A DNA stretch of 38,823 bases from a virus: the IMG/VR virus record IMGVR_UViG_3300046516_001137, positions 1 through 38,823 of that record. One strand, given 5' to 3'. The position numbers and the translations under genes were made by a program. The number at the start of each line of letters is the position of its first letter. Position 1 is the first letter of the stretch. Of this stretch, positions 149 through 24,693 are shown one piece after another. Under the pieces are notes generated by a model that was given only the letters and a program-made list of their open reading frames with translations, did no database searches and had not been told where the DNA came from.

Positions 149-176
149 TAGGCGTCATCCTATTGTGTGGCGGGCC

Positions 177-383
177 ATGTGCCCCGATCCCGACCTCGCC
201 ACCGACCCGCTGCTTGAGACCGTCGAGTTGTTCCTTCGCGCCTCGGACATGAGCGCCAGTGCCTTCGGGATCGAGTGCATGGGCGATCCTGGTCTGGTCT
301 ACGAGTTGCGCCGGGGCCGCGAGCCGCGCCGGGCGACGAGGGCACGCATACGCGCGTTCATCAACGCCGCGCTGGCGGACTAG
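177..383 (+). CDS. Small HTH-like regulatory protein
   Basis: This 68-residue protein carries the pattern FLRASDMSASAFG...GDPGLVYELRRGREPR followed by RARIRAFI. It resembles small helix-turn-helix proteins common in alphaproteobacteria and their phages. They look like a Cro/repressor-type HTH in which 'S-A-x-x-F-G' starts the first helix and 'RRGREPR' follows the recognition helix. It probably binds DNA, perhaps the palindrome just upstream. ATG at 177 follows a weak GGCGGG; GTG at 165 in the same frame is an alternative. It ends two bases before the next gene, so it is probably cotranscribed with the modification-type cassette. Confidence 0.6.
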   Translation: MCPDPDLATDPLLETVELFLRASDMSASAFGIECMGDPGLVYELRRGREPRRATRARIRAFINAALAD

Positions 384-1166
384 GTGTTGCGAGTTCTCAG
401 CCTCGGCGCGGGCGTCCAGAGCACCACGTTGGCCCTGCTGGCGGAGGCGGGAAAGATCGAGCCGCCGGATTGCGCCATCTTCGCTGATACCGGGGCGGAG
501 CCTGCCGGTGTCTACGCGCATCTCGACTGGCTGGAGACGGTGCTGCCGTTCCCGGTGCGTCGCGTTGTCGCGAAGTTCGGGTACCTCGGTCCCGCGATCC
601 TGGCGGGGAGCATCGGCAAGGCGCCGTTCTTCACCAAAGACCCTGACGGCATGTTGCCGCGGTATTGTTCCAAGGAGGCGAAAGTCAGGCCGATCGCGGC
701 CACGGTGCGCGAGATGTTGGGCGTGGCTCCCGGCGCGCGTGTTCCGACCGGCGTGAACGTCGAGGTGTGGCTGGGCATATCGACGGATGAGGCCCACCGG
801 ATGAAGCCGTCCGAGAACGCGTGGATGACAAACCGCTGGCCGCTGATCGAGGCGGGGATGTCACGCCGCGACTGCCTGCGTTGGATGGAACGCGCGGGGC
901 ATCCAACGCCGGTCAAATCAGCTTGCGTGTGGTGTCCATATCACGACGATAACGCGTGGCGAACGATGAAGGCGGAACAGCCCGCCGATTTCGCCGCCGC
1001 CGTGGCGTTCGACGCCGCGATCCGCACCGGACTGCCTGGCGTGCTGGGCACGGCCTACGTCCACAGATCTCGCCAGCCGCTCGATCAGGTCGATCTCTCG
1101 ACGTGGGCGGAACGCGGGCAGGCCGATCTGTTCGGGGCCGAATGTGAGGGGATGTGCGGCACATGA
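384..1166 (+). CDS. PAPS-reductase-like PP-loop ATP pyrophosphatase
   Basis: A 260-residue phage-type member of the PAPS reductase / PP-loop superfamily, which binds ATP and adenylates a substrate. The P-loop-like SLGAGVQST is at residues 6-14, and FADTGAEP at 33-40 is the usual second block. Conserved cysteines are C95 in RYCSKEAKVRP, the pair C181/C184 in SACVWCPYH, and the C-terminal pair C254/C258 in CEGMCG. The cysteines suggest a metal or Fe-S site, as in DndC or TtcA relatives. Translation starts with GTG directly after the preceding stop. It leads a coupled chain that ends in a methyltransferase and a radical SAM enzyme. The true substrate is unknown; sulfate reduction is unlikely in a phage. 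Confidence 0.82.
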   Translation: MLRVLSLGAGVQSTTLALLAEAGKIEPPDCAIFADTGAEPAGVYAHLDWLETVLPFPVRRVVAKFGYLGPAILAGSIGKAPFFTKDPDGMLPRYCSKEAKVRPIAATVREMLGVAPGARVPTGVNVEVWLGISTDEAHRMKPSENAWMTNRWPLIEAGMSRRDCLRWMERAGHPTPVKSACVWCPYHDDNAWRTMKAEQPADFAAAVAFDAAIRTGLPGVLGTAYVHRSRQPLDQVDLSTWAERGQADLFGAECEGMCGT

Positions 1167-1345
1167 CCCCGCGCGACTTCATCCCGATTTCCGAGGCGGT
1201 GGCCCGCGTCGTCGGGCGCGTCATGCGCCGGCAGCGGGAACGACAGGAATTCAATGACGCCGATCTGGCGGCGAAATTCCCCGTCGCTGACCCGGAAGAC
1301 GCTGAAATGGCAAGGGAATTCGCCGAGCCGGAGATCGGGGCGTGA
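1163..1345 (+). CDS. Small hypothetical protein
   Basis: A 60-residue protein starting at ATG 1163, which overlaps the stop of the PP-loop gene as ATGA. GTG at 1154 is an in-frame alternative. The first half is basic (VVGRVMRRQRERQEFNDADL) and the second half acidic. I recognise no family. The overlaps at both ends suggest translational coupling with its neighbours, so it may be a small partner of the cassette enzymes. Confidence 0.5.
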   Translation: MTPRDFIPISEAVARVVGRVMRRQRERQEFNDADLAAKFPVADPEDAEMAREFAEPEIGA

Positions 1346-1428
1346 GCCACCTGCCGCTCGCCGCTCGCGCCGTCGCCGCCGCCGTGGTCGGCGTGTGGAT
1401 CTGGGCGATCTGGGCGCTGGTCCAGTGA
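1342..1428 (+). CDS. 28-residue single-pass membrane peptide
   Basis: A very short frame from GTG 1342 to TGA 1428 fits exactly between its neighbours, with a GTGA overlap at each end. The peptide is basic at the start and then has one hydrophobic run, AVAAAVVGVWIWAIWALV, long enough to cross a membrane once. The precise double overlap is what supports it as real. Its role is unknown; a small membrane peptide in an early phage cassette could act on the host envelope or on an enzyme partner. Confidence 0.45.
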   Translation: MSHLPLAARAVAAAVVGVWIWAIWALVQ

Positions 1429-2150
1429 GGGCGCGCAAGCCACTGGCCATCGACCTGTTCTGCGGGCTTGGCGGCTGGACCGAGGGGCTGCTGGCCGAGG
1501 GTTATTCGGTCGTCGGCTTCGATATCGAGGCGCACCAATACGGCGAGCACCGTTACCCGGCCCAGCTTGTCATCCAGGACGTGCTGACGCTGCACGGCAG
1601 CCAGTTCCGCGATGCCGCCCTGATCGTCGCCTCGCCGCCGTGCCAGGCGTACAGCTACCGCGCCATGCCGTGGTCACGCGCCAAGGCGCTGCCGCCGCCC
1701 GACAACTCGCTGTTCGAAGCCTGCTTCCGCATTCAGCGCGAGGCGATCGAGGCGGCTGGGCATCACATTCCGCTCATCGTGGAGAACGTGCGCGGCGCGC
1801 AGAAGTGGGTCAGGCGCGCTCGTTGGAACTTCGGATCGTTCTACCTGTGGGGCGACGTGCCGGCGCTGATGCCGATGCGCTTCCGCTCCGAGCACAACAA
1901 GCTGCCGCCCGCCATCAACGACGCGATCAGAAACGGGCAGTCACCAGCCCGATGGACCAATCCGGCCGAGCATTATTTCGGACCCATCGTTGATGACGGC
2001 GTCAAGATGGGCGGGACATGGTGGCACGACACCACGAACAACATCGTGCGGCGGTGCGGATCGAAGTCATCCGCTCGCAAAGCCGCCTCGGCCATGATCG
2101 CGAAGATCCCGCTCCCGCTCTCGCGGCACATCGCGGCGGTGTTCAGATGA
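1425..2150 (+). CDS. C5-cytosine DNA methyltransferase, compact
   Basis: A 241-residue Dcm-type enzyme that transfers a methyl group from SAM to carbon 5 of cytosine. Motif I is DLFCGLGGWTEGL (residues 10-22), motif IV is SPPCQ (70-74, catalytic C73), and motif VI is ENV (120-122). The C-terminal IPLPLSRHIAAVF resembles motif X. It is shorter than most family members, so the target recognition part is small and specificity cannot be read. GTG at 1425 is chosen because it overlaps the preceding stop as GTGA; an upstream extension would run antiparallel to family expectation. It probably protects phage DNA from restriction or prepares cytosine for further change. Confidence 0.88.
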   Translation: MRARKPLAIDLFCGLGGWTEGLLAEGYSVVGFDIEAHQYGEHRYPAQLVIQDVLTLHGSQFRDAALIVASPPCQAYSYRAMPWSRAKALPPPDNSLFEACFRIQREAIEAAGHHIPLIVENVRGAQKWVRRARWNFGSFYLWGDVPALMPMRFRSEHNKLPPAINDAIRNGQSPARWTNPAEHYFGPIVDDGVKMGGTWWHDTTNNIVRRCGSKSSARKAASAMIAKIPLPLSRHIAAVFR

Positions 2151-2302
2151 GAAGAGTTTCGGAATTGGCGCCAACGGTCCCCCGGCGCCGATCGCGTAAC
2201 GGCGGCGCGATGCCCGCCGACGTGCCGTGCGTACAATGCGATTGTGTTCATCAGACTCCCCGGCGCCGCGCGACATCCTCCCCAGGCGCCGGGGTCTTTT
2301 GA
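2147..2302 (+). CDS. Possible 51-residue leader or small protein
   Basis: ATG at 2147 overlaps the methyltransferase stop as ATGA, and the frame ends at TGA 2302, which overlaps the ATG of the radical SAM gene. The predicted protein is rich in Arg and Pro and contains CVQCDC, which could be a metal knuckle. The same DNA folds into strong GC hairpins, so the frame could be a leader peptide or could be accidental. Both junctions argue for translation, and the odd composition argues against a folded protein. Confidence 0.35.
   Translation: MRRVSELAPTVPRRRSRNGGAMPADVPCVQCDCVHQTPRRRATSSPGAGVF
2258..2300 (+). terminator. Terminator-like hairpin before the radical SAM gene
   Basis: CCCCGGCGCC (2258-2267) and GGCGCCGGGG (2285-2294) form a perfect ten-pair all-GC stem with a 17-base loop, followed at once by TCTTTT. 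This is the form of a Rho-independent terminator. A second copy of the left arm lies at 2180-2189 and could compete for the same right arm, and a palindrome TTGGCGCCAA lies at 2165-2174. The hairpin ends one base before the ATG of the next gene, so it could also hide that start codon. Confidence 0.6.
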
Positions 2303-3294
2303 TGCGTATCCGCCTCACCCAGATCGACGGCAGCCTGCCGAATCTCGCGCTAATGAAACTGGCGCACTGGCACAAGGCGCGCGGCGACGAAGTGACGTTC
2401 ACGCACCAGGCCGAGCGCGATCTGTTCGAGGGTGATTACGATCGCGTCTACGGCTCGGCCATCTTTAAGTTCAGCAGCCCGAAGATCGCCCGTTTCCTGG
2501 CCGCGTGGCCGGACGCGATCCTGGGCGGCACCGGCACGGCCAGCCAACGCACGGTCGAGGATGAGATCGGGCCATACGAGCATTACGACTATTCACTGTA
2601 TCCCGCATTCGAGCCGTCCATCGGCTTCACGCAACGCGGATGCCGACTGTCGTGCAAATTCTGCGTGGTGCCCGCGAAAGAGGGCAAGGCGCGCTCGACC
2701 AATCGCATCGCTGAGATATGGCGCGGCGCCGGGCACCCAAAGAAGCTGCATTTGCTGGACAATGATTTCTTCGGCGCCCCGGAATGGCGTGATCGCATCG
2801 CCGAGATCCGCGATGGCGAATTCCGGGTCTGCCTGAACCAGGGGATCAACGTGCGCCACCTGTCGCCGGAAGCAGCCGAGGCGCTGGCGACGGTCGAGTA
2901 TCGCGACGACAGGTTTTCCGAGCGACGGCTTTACACGGCATGGGACAACCTCAAGGACGAGAGGGTGTTCTTCCGGGGCGTTGCCATGCTGGAGGCGGCC
3001 GGCGTGCCCGCCCGGCATCTGCGCGCTTACATGCTGGTGGGCTGGGACAAGAACGAGACCTGGGAGCGCATCCACCATCGTTTCGAGCGGATGGTGGAGC
3101 GCGGCATTGAGCCATTTCCCATGGTTTTCGATTGCCGCGCCACCGATCCGGCCCGCTATCGGGGCCTGAAACAATTCCAGCGATGGGCCATCACCGGACT
3201 TTACCGGGCGGTGCCGTTTTCCCAGTACGACGCCAACGCCAAACGCGAGCGGTATCCCGACACAAGGCAGATTGAACTGGCGACCGCGTCGTGA
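2302..3294 (+). CDS. Phage radical SAM protein
   Basis: A 330-residue radical SAM enzyme, with the 4Fe-4S motif CxxxCxxC at C114, C118 and C121 (GCRLSCKFC). The first hundred residues (TQIDGSLPNLALMKL...VYGSAIFKFS...GGTGT) resemble the cobalamin-binding-like N-terminal domain of MiaB-type and B12-type radical SAM proteins, but without the DxHxxG cobalamin motif. Relatives occur in other phages without a proven function. The start at ATG 2302 overlaps the previous stop as TGATG. It is coupled to a cytosine methyltransferase and a PP-loop enzyme, so nucleic acid modification is the most natural guess. The next frame begins with GTGA at its stop. Confidence 0.82.
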   Translation: MRIRLTQIDGSLPNLALMKLAHWHKARGDEVTFTHQAERDLFEGDYDRVYGSAIFKFSSPKIARFLAAWPDAILGGTGTASQRTVEDEIGPYEHYDYSLYPAFEPSIGFTQRGCRLSCKFCVVPAKEGKARSTNRIAEIWRGAGHPKKLHLLDNDFFGAPEWRDRIAEIRDGEFRVCLNQGINVRHLSPEAAEALATVEYRDDRFSERRLYTAWDNLKDERVFFRGVAMLEAAGVPARHLRAYMLVGWDKNETWERIHHRFERMVERGIEPFPMVFDCRATDPARYRGLKQFQRWAITGLYRAVPFSQYDANAKRERYPDTRQIELATAS

Positions 3295-3356
3295 GCGGCG
3301 GCGGCACGGCGCACTGGTCAGCCGCCACGCCCGATCGGGTGGTGACGATGCCGCGT
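3291..3356 (+). pseudogene. Possible gene start cut off by the HNH insertion
   Basis: GTG at 3291 overlaps the radical SAM stop as GTGA, the usual junction in this genome. The frame reads MSGGGTAHWSAATPDRVVTM and then runs antisense through the whole HNH gene. The short GC-rich start therefore looks like the beginning of a gene that lost its body when the endonuclease was inserted, or just a chance overlap. Confidence 0.2.
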
Positions 3357-3971
3357 TCAGAGCAGCAGCCCGTGTTGTTGGACCCACGATATGGAATCCT
3401 TGGAACCCTTGCTGAGGTTGCACGGCTTGCACAACAACTGGATATTACGAATGTAATTCGATCCGCCGCTTATCAGCGGGATTATATGGTCGCGGTGATA
3501 CTTGTCCCCGAGTTTCTTGCGGCAGGCGGTGTTGGCGCATTTGCCTTTCTGCCTGATCAGGAGGTCCCTGATTTCCGCGAGCGTGTGCTTGCCTTCTGCT
3601 TTTTTCCGCCTCGCTCTACGATTGGCCGTGTTCGCTCTCGTGTAGTCCTTGTTTCTGGCAGTCCATGCGGCGTTATGTTTTCTGACCCGCTCAGGGTTCT
3701 GTTTTGCCCACTCCGCGACGCGTGTTTTTTCACGTTCTGGATTAGCTTTTGCCCAGGCAAGGGTTTTCTTGATGGACTCTTCACGAGTTTGGGAATACGC
3801 GCGACGGCGGTGAATAAGGCTGCATTCTTTGCAGATCATTGTTTTGACAAATCGCTCTGCCACGTGCCCGTGGATGCAGGGTATTCCTGTGAAATACCGC
3901 TTCCGCCCATCGTCACGAGCGTCTTCTCGTGTGACAAGCGGGCCAATAAAAGGCAAACTGGTGAAAGCCAT
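3357..3971 (-). CDS. HNH endonuclease (free-standing homing type)
   Basis: A 204-residue minus-strand protein with a C-terminal HNH nuclease domain: a CANTAC cysteine pair, then KYHRDHIIPLISGG, NIQLLCKPCN. An N-terminal zinc-finger-like segment (GIPCIHGH...MICKECS) and a basic middle with repeated KANPE/KQNPE-like units resemble phage HNH proteins with DNA-binding repeats. The start at 3971 is favoured by AGGAG eight bases upstream; an in-frame ATG at 4028 lacks this. A minus-strand promoter-like TATTAT lies upstream. It is inverted relative to all neighbours and is richer in A/T at third positions, as expected of a mobile endonuclease gene. Confidence 0.85.
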   Translation of the reverse strand: MAFTSLPFIGPLVTREDARDDGRKRYFTGIPCIHGHVAERFVKTMICKECSLIHRRRAYSQTREESIKKTLAWAKANPEREKTRVAEWAKQNPERVRKHNAAWTARNKDYTRANTANRRARRKKAEGKHTLAEIRDLLIRQKGKCANTACRKKLGDKYHRDHIIPLISGGSNYIRNIQLLCKPCNLSKGSKDSISWVQQHGLLL

Positions 3972-4084
3972 TCGGGTGCTCCTATCGCTCGAAAGGTCAG
4001 AGGCGTGGTGGCGCTGGAACGCTGCCATGCCTCGTCATTTTACATAGATAATACGGCGACCGCAACGGTGAATGAGGCTTCACC

Positions 4085-4567: not shown

Positions 4568-4959
4568 GCGCGCAACTGGAATTGTTCTGGGACTGCTCTG
4601 CAAACGGAAACGCCGGCCAGAATCACCTGACCGGCGCAACCGTGGGAGTACGCAACCCCGCTGTTCATGCTATACCAGCGGAGCGAACGGAGGCCCGCGA
4701 GAGCGGGTACCGCTCTCGTTCTCCGGTGGGGCCACAAACGGGTCAGGATCGTATTCGCGATCCGTCTGTAGCCCGCCGGAGGCTGGTGGGGTGTGGAAAG
4801 CATCCCACCGGTCTTCAGGTTAGCACAAACACAAATCCGCCGCCAACACGGCCATTCGACTTCGCGGCCGCCATCCGCGACGACCCGCGCGCCGTGCCGA
4901 TGCCCGACGTGCCGGTGCCGGAGTGGCTCAGGCTGCCGATTGACGAGGATCGGACGTGA
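4564..4959 (+). CDS. Hypothetical protein overlapping a hairpin block
   Basis: GTG at 4564 overlaps the RusA stop as GTGA and the frame runs 131 residues. The two ends look like protein (SAQLELFWDCSA and FDFAAAIRDDPRAVPM...PVPEWLRLPID). The middle (about residues 17-85) is unlike protein and coincides with four strong hairpins. The 3' end overlaps the end of the convergent GIY-YIG gene. Either this is one odd protein, or a gene with a structured element inserted in frame. No family recognised. Confidence 0.35.
   Translation: MSAQLELFWDCSANGNAGQNHLTGATVGVRNPAVHAIPAERTEARESGYRSRSPVGPQTGQDRIRDPSVARRRLVGCGKHPTGLQVSTNTNPPPTRPFDFAAAIRDDPRAVPMPDVPVPEWLRLPIDEDRT
4611..4816 (+). ncRNA. Candidate structured RNA (four consecutive hairpins)
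   Basis: Four helices follow one another. CGCCGG 4611-4616 pairs with CCGGCG 4631-4636. CGAGAGCGG 4698-4706 pairs with CCGCTCTCG 4710-4718 around a three-base loop, with outer CGGAG/CTCCG pairs at 4688-4692 and 4721-4725. GGATCG 4746-4751 pairs with CGATCC 4758-4763. Bases 4778-4790 pair with 4804-4816 over 13 pairs, three of them G-U. The G-U pairs hold only for plus-strand RNA, which favours an RNA element over a DNA palindrome. I do not recognise the family. Confidence 0.4.
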
Positions 4960-5482
4960 TGTCGTCATCAGGGTATATGCTGACGGGTGGTTCTCCCCGC
5001 TCGAGGGCGGCGATTTCGCACGCCATCAAATACTGGATCCAGTTGGTCAGAGACCGGTCCTCCGCCTTTGCAGCCAGCTTGGCCTGGTCGCGCAGTGCGG
5101 TGTCAATTCGCATCGTGAAAACGACCGGTGCCGCAGCCGAACGCCTGCCCGGTTTCTTGCGTACCTTTTTCTCCCTGGGCGGAAGAGGCATGAACGGCGC
5201 CGCCGTGATGTCAAGTGTATTTATGACGATCTCGATTTCTTTTACCGCATCTTCCTCCGTCATCCTGAACAGTTCGTTCTTGTGATGGAAAGCCGCCAAC
5301 CTCCGATGGACCATCCTTTCCACAAATTCGGCCTGGCGTCTCGGCATTCCCCATGCCTGATAGAACCCGGTAATAATCGGATACTGTTTTTTCACCCCAA
5401 TCATGCGGATCAAAGGATCGTCGGCAATCCCAATCTTCACGATGCCGACTTCCGAGGTCATGATGTAGACGTATCGGGTTAC
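4928..5482 (-). CDS. GIY-YIG / T5orf172-type protein with C-terminal RHH-like domain
   Basis: The minus-strand frame has RYVYIMTSEVGIVKIGIADDP...R, then AEFVERMVHRRL, the pattern of T5orf172 domains, which are GIY-YIG-like nucleases of phages. After a basic linker (REKKVRKKPGRR) comes VVFTMRIDTALRDQAKLAAKAEDRS, a ribbon-helix-helix-like DNA-binding end. The expected start, just before TRYVYIM, reads GTA at 5482, overlapping the stop of the upstream gene as GTAA. The first usable ATG is 5461, inside the first strand of the domain, and another in-frame ATG lies at 5563 inside the upstream gene. Translation may therefore be damaged. It is convergent with and overlaps the gene at 4564. Confidence 0.65.
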   Translation of the reverse strand, partial: VTRYVYIMTSEVGIVKIGIADDPLIRMIGVKKQYPIITGFYQAWGMPRRQAEFVERMVHRRLAAFHHKNELFRMTEEDAVKEIEIVINTLDITAAPFMPLPPREKKVRKKPGRRSAAAPVVFTMRIDTALRDQAKLAAKAEDRSLTNWIQYLMACEIAALERGEPPVSIYPDDDITSDPRQSAA

Positions 5483-5667
5483 CGCTCCTCGCGGAACACC
5501 TGCTCCATCTTCTCTCGGATCGCCTTCGACTGGTTCGGCAGGTCCGGCTTCTTCGCCCGCCATTCGTTCAGGCGGCGCAGGAATCCCTCGGACACGACCA
5601 GCTGCAGCCGCTTCTCCAAGGGCTCCCAGGGGATCTCCGGCGCCGATTCGGGTGCTGTTTCGCTCAT
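5479..5667 (-). CDS. Small ribbon-helix-helix-like DNA-binding protein
   Basis: A 62-residue protein. The core EKRLQLVVSEGFLRRLNEWRAKKPDLPNQSKAIREKMEQVF fits a strand followed by two helices, as in Arc/MetJ-type repressors. ATG at 5667 is preceded by GAGG six bases upstream; an ATG four codons earlier (5679) has no such site. It is divergent to the Gp157 gene, with an inverted repeat over the promoter between them, so autorepression and control of the recombination operon is a reasonable inference. Its stop overlaps the GIY-YIG frame. Confidence 0.6.
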   Translation of the reverse strand: MSETAPESAPEIPWEPLEKRLQLVVSEGFLRRLNEWRAKKPDLPNQSKAIREKMEQVFREER

Positions 5668-5704
5668 TTTCCGCCTCATTCATCGCCATCTAGCCATTCT
5701 GCCG

Positions 5705-23621: not shown

Positions 23622-23660
23622 AATGGCGGTCGCGACAAACCGATATCCAGGGCCGCCATT
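23622..23660 (+). promoter_or_regulatory. Hairpin after the coat gene
   Basis: AATGGCGG (23622-23629) and CCGCCATT (23653-23660) form a perfect eight-pair stem about 17 bases after the coat stop. No T-run follows directly, so it is a poor terminator; it may stabilise the coat message or mark the endonuclease insertion edge. Confidence 0.35.
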
Positions 23661-23718
23661 CCTTGCTTTGCTTGATGGAGTTCGATACTATGTCACCGCT
23701 TATGGATATGAGGGTGAC

Positions 23719-24693
23719 ATGCAAGACGAAAAAGGTATTTGGACGAGTTGCTGCATAAAAGGTTGCGACCGAGATGTGATATCGAACGGACTCTGTATAA
23801 ATCATCACAGACGTAATCAGCTTTATGGTTCTCCAGTCGCCTCAAAATTAGTTGACTGGCGTTGGCGTCGACTTTCGCATGAGGAGCGGTTTTGGAAGTC
23901 GGTTAACAAGACAGACACGTGCTGGCTCTGGATTTCTGGTTTGGATAAGGACGGTTACGGAGCATTCCGGGCTGAGCATGATGGCGCGATGCATCAACGC
24001 GCGCATCGCTACAGCTATGCCATGCATAAGGGAAAAATTCCTTCGACGTTGAACGTCTGTCATACTTGCGACGTGCGAGCGTGCGTGAAGCCGGATCATC
24101 TATTTCTCGGAACGATGGCTGAGAACATGGATGACAAGATGGCGAAAGGCCGCCACCGCACGACAAAAGGTGAAGAACACTATCGAGCGATCCTCACTGA
24201 GGAACAGGCCCGCGCCATCCTGCTCGATCCGCGACCGCATACGCAGATCGCCAATAGTTATAAAGTGGCCAGGACAACCATTAGCAGCCTTAAGTCCCGT
24301 CATTCATGGCCCGAGCTGGGCGAAGCGAAGGGCGTCAAGGCGAAACGAGTCAGCCCCCGTCAGGGCGTGAGTGATAAAGTCACGCCTGATATGGTGCGAG
24401 AAATTCTGGCCAGCAAAGAACGCGGGATTGACCTCGCTAAGAAGTTCGACATTACACCGCAGATGGTCAGCAACATACGTCATCGTCGAATGTGGGCTCA
24501 CATCGAGGGTGACGTGGCCTTGGCTTTTAGTAGGCGCGGCGCGGGAAATCACGATACCAACCTCACCCCAGCAGATATCAGGGCCATAAGAACGAGCAGC
24601 GAGAAAGGTGCCAGACTGGCGGAACAGTACGGCATCGCAAGATCAACGATTTCCAGCATTCGTCTACGCCGCACCTGGACCCACATCGAGTAG
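23719..24693 (+). CDS. HNH endonuclease with three HTH repeats
   Basis: A 324-residue protein with a Cys/His-rich start (SCCIKGCDRDV...GLCINHHRRNQLYG). An HNH_3-type domain follows: HEERFWKSVNKTDTCWLWISGLDKDGYGAF, RAHRYSYAMHKGKIP, LNVCHTCDVRACVKPDHLFLGT. The last 150 residues hold three similar helix-turn-helix units of about 45-60 residues, each ending in W-P/H-I/E (SSLKSRHSWPEL, SNIRHRRMWAHIE, SSIRLRRTWTHIE), which would read a long target. ATG 23719 has GAGG six bases upstream; an in-frame ATG at 23623 has none. A/T-rich codon use and position between coat and the next virion gene fit a mobile homing gene. Confidence 0.85.
   Translation: MQDEKGIWTSCCIKGCDRDVISNGLCINHHRRNQLYGSPVASKLVDWRWRRLSHEERFWKSVNKTDTCWLWISGLDKDGYGAFRAEHDGAMHQRAHRYSYAMHKGKIPSTLNVCHTCDVRACVKPDHLFLGTMAENMDDKMAKGRHRTTKGEEHYRAILTEEQARAILLDPRPHTQIANSYKVARTTISSLKSRHSWPELGEAKGVKAKRVSPRQGVSDKVTPDMVREILASKERGIDLAKKFDITPQMVSNIRHRRMWAHIEGDVALAFSRRGAGNHDTNLTPADIRAIRTSSEKGARLAEQYGIARSTISSIRLRRTWTHIE

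Follow-up and report, generated by a model that had tools for sequence, protein, structure and literature searches.

The left end of a 38.8-kb virus record from IMG/VR (IMGVR_UViG_3300046516_001137; this whole stretch is referred to here as the window) carries a row of genes in which single genes are exchanged one by one between fixed linkers, and the genes that fill the slots code mostly for nucleic acid enzymes. In the window, the exchanged genes code for a PP-loop ATP-pyrophosphatase-like protein, a compact C5-cytosine DNA methyltransferase and a radical S-adenosylmethionine (SAM) enzyme of the family phrog_9298. The window also encodes a RecT-like protein, a primase/helicase, a terminase, a portal protein and major head and tail genes. 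The row, in which all open reading frames (ORFs) lie on the + strand, would be part of the early genes of a tailed phage. We lean towards the view that the region from position 165 to position 3355 is a series of single-gene cargo slots, most of them with nucleic acid-modifying cargo, and that these enzymes, acting alone or as a loose PP-loop/radical SAM pair, help the phage to evade restriction. An anti-restriction role of the whole row would fit the contents of the slots.

Single genes exchanged between fixed linkers

The window was compared with four sister phages (L002, L040, L057 and L192) by blastn and linker alignments. In all five the linkers are colinear and fixed and the cargo genes are exchanged singly, that is, close relatives share the flanks and differ in the genes between them, as is expected of exchangeable cargo slots. 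The fixed framework comprises a 72-residue ORF (p165) that has neither a Pfam nor a PHROG match, a 60-residue ORF (p63), a 28-residue hydrophobic peptide, a hairpin linker and a right-hand linker (Table 1). Slot A, after p165, holds an SspD-like PP-loop protein in the window, whereas the search for one at this place in L002, L040 and L057 gave nothing. Slot B follows p63 and has no PP-loop protein in the window; it holds one of the PF01507 type in L040, and in L002 (5023-5763) and L057 (4178-4921) one related to the PDB entry 21fy, "PptA" (the L002 protein matches chain C over nearly its whole length, E = 5.7e-44). A literature search found no paper on PptA as a PP-loop or phage protein. Slot C, after the 28-residue peptide, is occupied by the methyltransferase in the window and in L057, the only sister that has it (about 90% nucleotide identity over 1340-1873), is empty in L002 and L040, and contains a small ORF in L192. 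Lastly, slot D, after the hairpin linker, holds the radical SAM gene in the window, L002 and L040 (95% identical in the latter two), a gene in L057 whose product shares 33% identity with proteins of Mycobacterium phages that are annotated as DpdA-like transglycosylases, and a Dam-like methyltransferase gene in L192 (PF05869, 2.2e-5, below the cut-off). A further methyltransferase, of the MT-A70 type, lies downstream of the slots in L192 (4100-5287).

Judged by homology, the cargo of the slots thus consists of PP-loop proteins, C5-, N6- and N6/N4-methyltransferases, a DpdA-like transglycosylase and the radical SAM enzyme. That slot D otherwise holds nucleic acid-modification enzymes is the best clue that the radical SAM protein is such an enzyme too. 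Several points weigh against reading the row as a set of slots for such enzymes. The slots are defined by no more than five phages, the window and its four sisters, and the sister contigs may be incomplete, in which case partners could lie outside them or be supplied by the host. Moreover, the link between the radical SAM enzyme and DNA is one of guilt by position, through the putative DpdA-like and Dam-like genes of slot D, which are assigned on weak or second-hand matches, and the small ORF in slot C of L192 has no assigned function.

The same comparison bears on the original prediction, which had suggested, among other roles, a single pathway: the methyltransferase makes 5-methylcytosine and the PP-loop/radical SAM pair changes it further. 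The genes do stand in one row, partly overlapping, and Dulem virus 39 has the same three kinds of gene: its C5-methyltransferase, PP-loop and radical SAM genes follow in direct succession, with only a few nucleotides between the PP-loop and radical SAM genes. In TET phages, cytosine hypermodification is known to begin with a C5-methyltransferase. However, the radical SAM gene occurs without a C5-methyltransferase in L002 and L040, neither record having a match to the latter, and the methyltransferase and a PP-loop gene occur without the radical SAM gene in L057, whose record has no match to it; the three genes are therefore no obligate pathway, unless the missing members lie beyond the ends of these contigs or are supplied by the host. 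As to co-occurrence in other phage genomes, PP-loop genes tend to lie near the radical SAM gene in unrelated phages (see below). A C5-methyltransferase above the cut-off was present anywhere in the record in only 7 of 50 viral records bearing the radical SAM gene, and at 80 loci of the methyltransferase family no radical SAM gene was found within the flanking 5 kb. We regard such a 5-methylcytosine pathway as extremely improbable.

Table 1. Features of the gene row at the left end of the window
Feature	Position	Strand	Basis and remarks
72-residue framework ORF (p165), bounding the variable region on the left	165..383	+	tblastn in sister phages: L002 97%, L057 87%, L040 70%
PP-loop ATP-pyrophosphatase-like protein, SspD/PAPS-reductase type, cargo of slot A	384..1166	+	phrog_424, PADLOC SspD, Foldseek
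60-residue framework ORF (p63)	1163..1345	+	ATGA overlap with the PP-loop gene; tblastn in L192, L057, L002, L040
28-residue hydrophobic peptide, framework linker	1342..1428	+	GTGA overlap at either side; recurs in sister phages
Compact C5-cytosine DNA methyltransferase, cargo of slot C	1425..2150	+	PF00145
Possible 51-residue ORF bridging the methyltransferase and radical SAM genes	2147..2302	+	ATGA and TGATG overlaps; coding status uncertain
Linker hairpin CCCCGGCGCC / GGCGCCGGGG, then TCTTTT, terminator-like	2258..2300	+	Perfect 10-bp GC stem, directly 5' of the radical SAM ATG
Radical SAM enzyme, phrog_9298, cargo of slot D	2302..3294	+	PHROG match, alignment, AlphaFold
Conserved right-hand linker, begins at the slot D stop codon	3290..3355	+	Kept whatever cargo precedes

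The genes had also been described as joined throughout by overlapping start and stop codons. This is so for the first four ORFs of the row, from the PP-loop gene to the methyltransferase gene (ATGA at 1163, GTGA at 1342 and GTGA at 1425), and the 60-residue protein and the membrane peptide said to lie between the enzymes are both there and recur in the sister phages. It is not so for the methyltransferase and radical SAM genes, the former ending at 2150 and the latter starting at 2302, with 151 nucleotides between them. The hairpin linker in this gap is kept in all five phages regardless of the cargo; the folding z-score of the whole stretch is only -1.6. The frame of the 51-residue ORF is kept in four of the five (the window, L002, L040 and L057) and not throughout in L192. 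A possible small cysteine-containing peptide (MPADVPCVQCDC...) is found at 2210-2302 of the window and ends in the hairpin 5' of the radical SAM gene; it could be a leader peptide or a product of chance.

The three enzymes

The three enzyme families of the original prediction, and the motifs it reported as intact, are present, and the homologies are far above chance level; the family matches likewise bear out the view that the genes of the row are of nucleic acid-modification types. The PP-loop protein matches phrog_424 (E = 1.9e-41), and its best match in PADLOC is SspD (E = 9.4e-16, residues 3-233, nearly the full length). It has the motifs LGAGVQS, CVWC and CEGMC, and its predicted structure resembles phosphoadenosine phosphosulfate (PAPS) reductases (Foldseek, 5.6e-6), LarE and TtuA. 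Since PHROGs and GenBank label such proteins phosphoadenosine phosphosulfate reductase, the gene might be an ordinary auxiliary metabolic gene of sulfate assimilation and the row an accidental collection. We consider this very unlikely. A Pfam search of the protein at 0.1 gave no match to PF01507 (PAPS_reduct), which places it outside CysH, and its C-terminus reads CEGMCGT where CysH has its active-site motif, even though the PAPS-reductase fold class matches. Moreover, the closest match in the defence library is SspD, and the adjacent slots hold mostly nucleic acid enzymes. A match of the PP-loop profile to CAP repeats was discarded as a repeat artefact, like the pentatricopeptide matches of the radical SAM profile described below.

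The methyltransferase matches PF00145 (5e-8, 33.2 bits against a cut-off of 22) and has 312 relatives in IMG/VR. Its motif IV (PPCQ) and motif VI (ENV) are nearly invariant across the family alignment, and a variable region is found family-wide at the expected place of the target-recognition part. The product of the enzyme would be 5-methylcytosine, at sites chosen by this variable region. Pfam and PHROG scans of the window proteins, covering part of the ORFs, found no TET/JBP dioxygenase and no downstream transferase.

The protein encoded at 2302-3294 has both the cluster motif and the core fold of the radical SAM superfamily. It matches phrog_9298 with E = 2.8e-50, and its relatives are encoded at 52 viral loci with the same layout. 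An alignment of 37 sequences reveals very strong conservation, C114, C118 and C121 of the CxxxCxxC motif being the only invariant cysteines. The AlphaFold model (pLDDT 89) consists of the radical SAM core preceded by an N-terminal alpha/beta domain, which we read as flavodoxin-like. The match to PF04055 is 18.1 bits, under the cut-off of 29.5, and a Foldseek search of the model against the PDB gave no match below 1e-3; the best matches, all partial, were to lysine 2,3-aminomutase and the B12-dependent methyltransferase Mmp10 (E 0.009-0.07, prob 0.87-1.00), and among viral models only generic or unnamed radical SAM proteins were matched. Matches of the radical SAM profile to designer pentatricopeptide structures of the PDB (E to 1e-10) involve residues 227-285 only, with no stretch passing alone, and were rejected as a repeat artefact. 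Contigs that encode relatives have been assigned to many bacterial phyla. Yet of 385 alphaproteobacterial genomes drawn, the centre genome alone carried the gene, which therefore looks like a gene of mobile elements, and sampling two bacterial classes for further copies gave one new genome only.

It is conceivable, if rather improbable, that the PP-loop and radical SAM proteins modify host or phage tRNA, by thiolation or methylthiolation, and so sustain translation during infection. The radical SAM protein has weak NCBIfam matches to the MiaB/RimO group, the PP-loop fold resembles, among others, the sulfur transferase TtuA, and a gene for the tRNA ligase RtcB is close by in Bacteroides LoVEphage. 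However, the NCBIfam match covers 24 residues around the cluster motif and scores 16 bits against a cut-off of 251, and the protein lacks the second cluster and the TRAM domain of MiaB and RimO: no cysteines besides the three of the core are invariant, and the C-terminus is too short to accommodate a TRAM-like domain. Moreover, searches of the window for tRNAs and Rfam families gave no match, and SspD, the best PADLOC match of the PP-loop protein, is a DNA enzyme.

PP-loop genes beside the radical SAM gene in other phages

The loci of the radical SAM gene were clustered at 90% identity (89 clusters) and set against 112 control loci centred on the methyltransferase or RecT, using a PP-loop profile built within the analysis and trained partly on the same radical SAM loci. 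Of the 89 clusters 13, and of the 112 controls 3, have a PP-loop gene within 1.5 kb of the central gene (Fisher p = 0.002); within 5 kb the counts are 16 and 6, respectively (p = 0.004). The distances are concentrated close to the radical SAM gene (p = 3e-5), and all PP-loop genes found near it are on its strand; their subfamilies are very different from one another. With the independent phrog_424 model the counts were 6/50 versus 1/50 within 1.5 kb (p = 0.056, borderline) and 8/50 versus 4/50 over whole records (p = 0.18), and co-occurrence over whole records by phrog_424 alone was dropped as not significant. We read the excess as suggestive, and a loose PP-loop/radical SAM partnership seems plausible.

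The two genes directly adjoin each other in L041, L178 and L185 and in the Magnetococcales loci L149, L152, L162 and L166, and a PP-loop gene of one type or another accompanies the radical SAM gene in all three sister phages that have the latter. These adjacencies, together with the excess, the clustering of distances and the constant strand, would also agree with a tighter arrangement, a two-enzyme module in which a nucleic acid or small molecule, once activated or thiolated by the PP-loop protein, passes to the radical SAM enzyme for completion, with non-orthologous PP-loop proteins replacing one another and the methyltransferase as a bystander. We see this as a tentative possibility. In vir215, vir335 and Marinitoga camini virus 1 the radical SAM gene stands without a PP-loop match nearby. 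About 80% of the radical SAM clusters lack a PP-loop gene in the 5 kb around them, the profile was trained in part on the loci tested, the independent model gave non-significant to borderline results, and PP-loop genes also occur without a radical SAM gene, as in L057 and in Rhizobium phage RHph_N65, where nothing beside the PP-loop gene is annotated as radical SAM.

In the cargo-slot reading that we favour, adenylation of a substrate would fall to the PP-loop protein, perhaps as a step towards sulfur transfer, and the radical SAM enzyme would abstract hydrogen from a DNA base or nucleotide; each enzyme alone, or the loose pair, would mark or alter the phage DNA. The action of the radical SAM enzyme on DNA, the evasion of restriction and any teamwork of the pair are what we infer.

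Annotated PAPS-reductase and methyltransferase genes are found within about 7 kb in the Bacteroides phages LoVEphage, PV4-TP1 and BKO1-TP3 and in phage NatCom_21982. A search for PP-loop genes associated with the DpdA-like family turned up no more than 2 of 18 viral loci. In Erythrobacter phage vB_EliS_R6L (L242, 8989-11497), a DpdA-like gene is about 0.8 kb from an annotated PAPS reductase gene, echoing the pair in L057. Four radical SAM loci (L031, at 142-1020, and L013, L024 and L027) have another cysteine-rich phage protein (WIGCTRVSPGCDHCYA), which may be of the DUF5131 type.

Known systems, neighbouring genes and significance

The PP-loop protein of the window shares with the DNA phosphorothioation enzymes SspD, which acts in the single-strand form of this modification, and DndC the PP-loop ATP-pyrophosphatase domain with conserved cysteines. 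Unlike in SspABCD, the PP-loop gene stands apart from other components of the system: none of the window proteins scanned, which cover part of the ORFs, has a PADLOC match to SspA, SspB or SspC. Deazaguanine transglycosylases are represented by the DpdA-like gene in slot D of L057; the first 14 kb of the window gave no DpdA-like match, and NCBIfam matches to QueE or 7-deazaguanine synthesis were found for neither the radical SAM nor the PP-loop protein. The radical SAM enzyme of the window is a member of phrog_9298 by sequence; its slot is taken by DpdA-like and Dam-like genes in sister phages. A radical SAM gene is part of a small module in the Thermus phages phiMa and Cumys, for which unknown DNA modifications have been proposed (PMC11437467); its partners there, a DUF483 protein and another unknown, differ from those in the window, and the likeness is one of description. 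Phage homologues of PAPS reductase have been described as awaiting study (PMC11437467), and SspD-like and methyltransferase genes (there MTase_II) have been noted together, as in the window, in Sinorhizobium phiLM21-like prophages, in a paper from which the term radical SAM is absent (PMC12429752). The papers covered by our literature search contain no description of the combination of a PP-loop protein or PAPS reductase with a radical SAM enzyme in a phage, nor of the slot system.

Elsewhere in the window, two genes code for HNH endonucleases, one (3357-4028, - strand) adjoining the radical SAM slot and the other (23623-24693, + strand) separating the gene for the major head protein from those for the connector. 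Both resemble insertions of homing endonucleases. The product of a gene at 4928-5689 (- strand) has a T5orf172 (GIY-YIG-like) domain and a weak C-terminal match to HicB, and short pieces related to it are present in L002 and L040.

A bolder proposal, which we think unlikely, is that phrog_9298 is an unrecognised class of radical SAM enzymes that modify phage DNA bases or nucleotides by an undescribed chemistry, often together with interchangeable PP-loop proteins for sulfur or adenylate transfer. Modification of phage DNA is known mostly from a handful of pathways. A strongly conserved radical SAM family that has an exchange slot in common with DpdA-like and Dam-like genes, and is often found near PP-loop enzymes, would point concretely towards a new DNA modification and a means of escaping restriction. 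The sister phages offer natural gene-by-gene comparisons, in which each enzyme could be tested alone.

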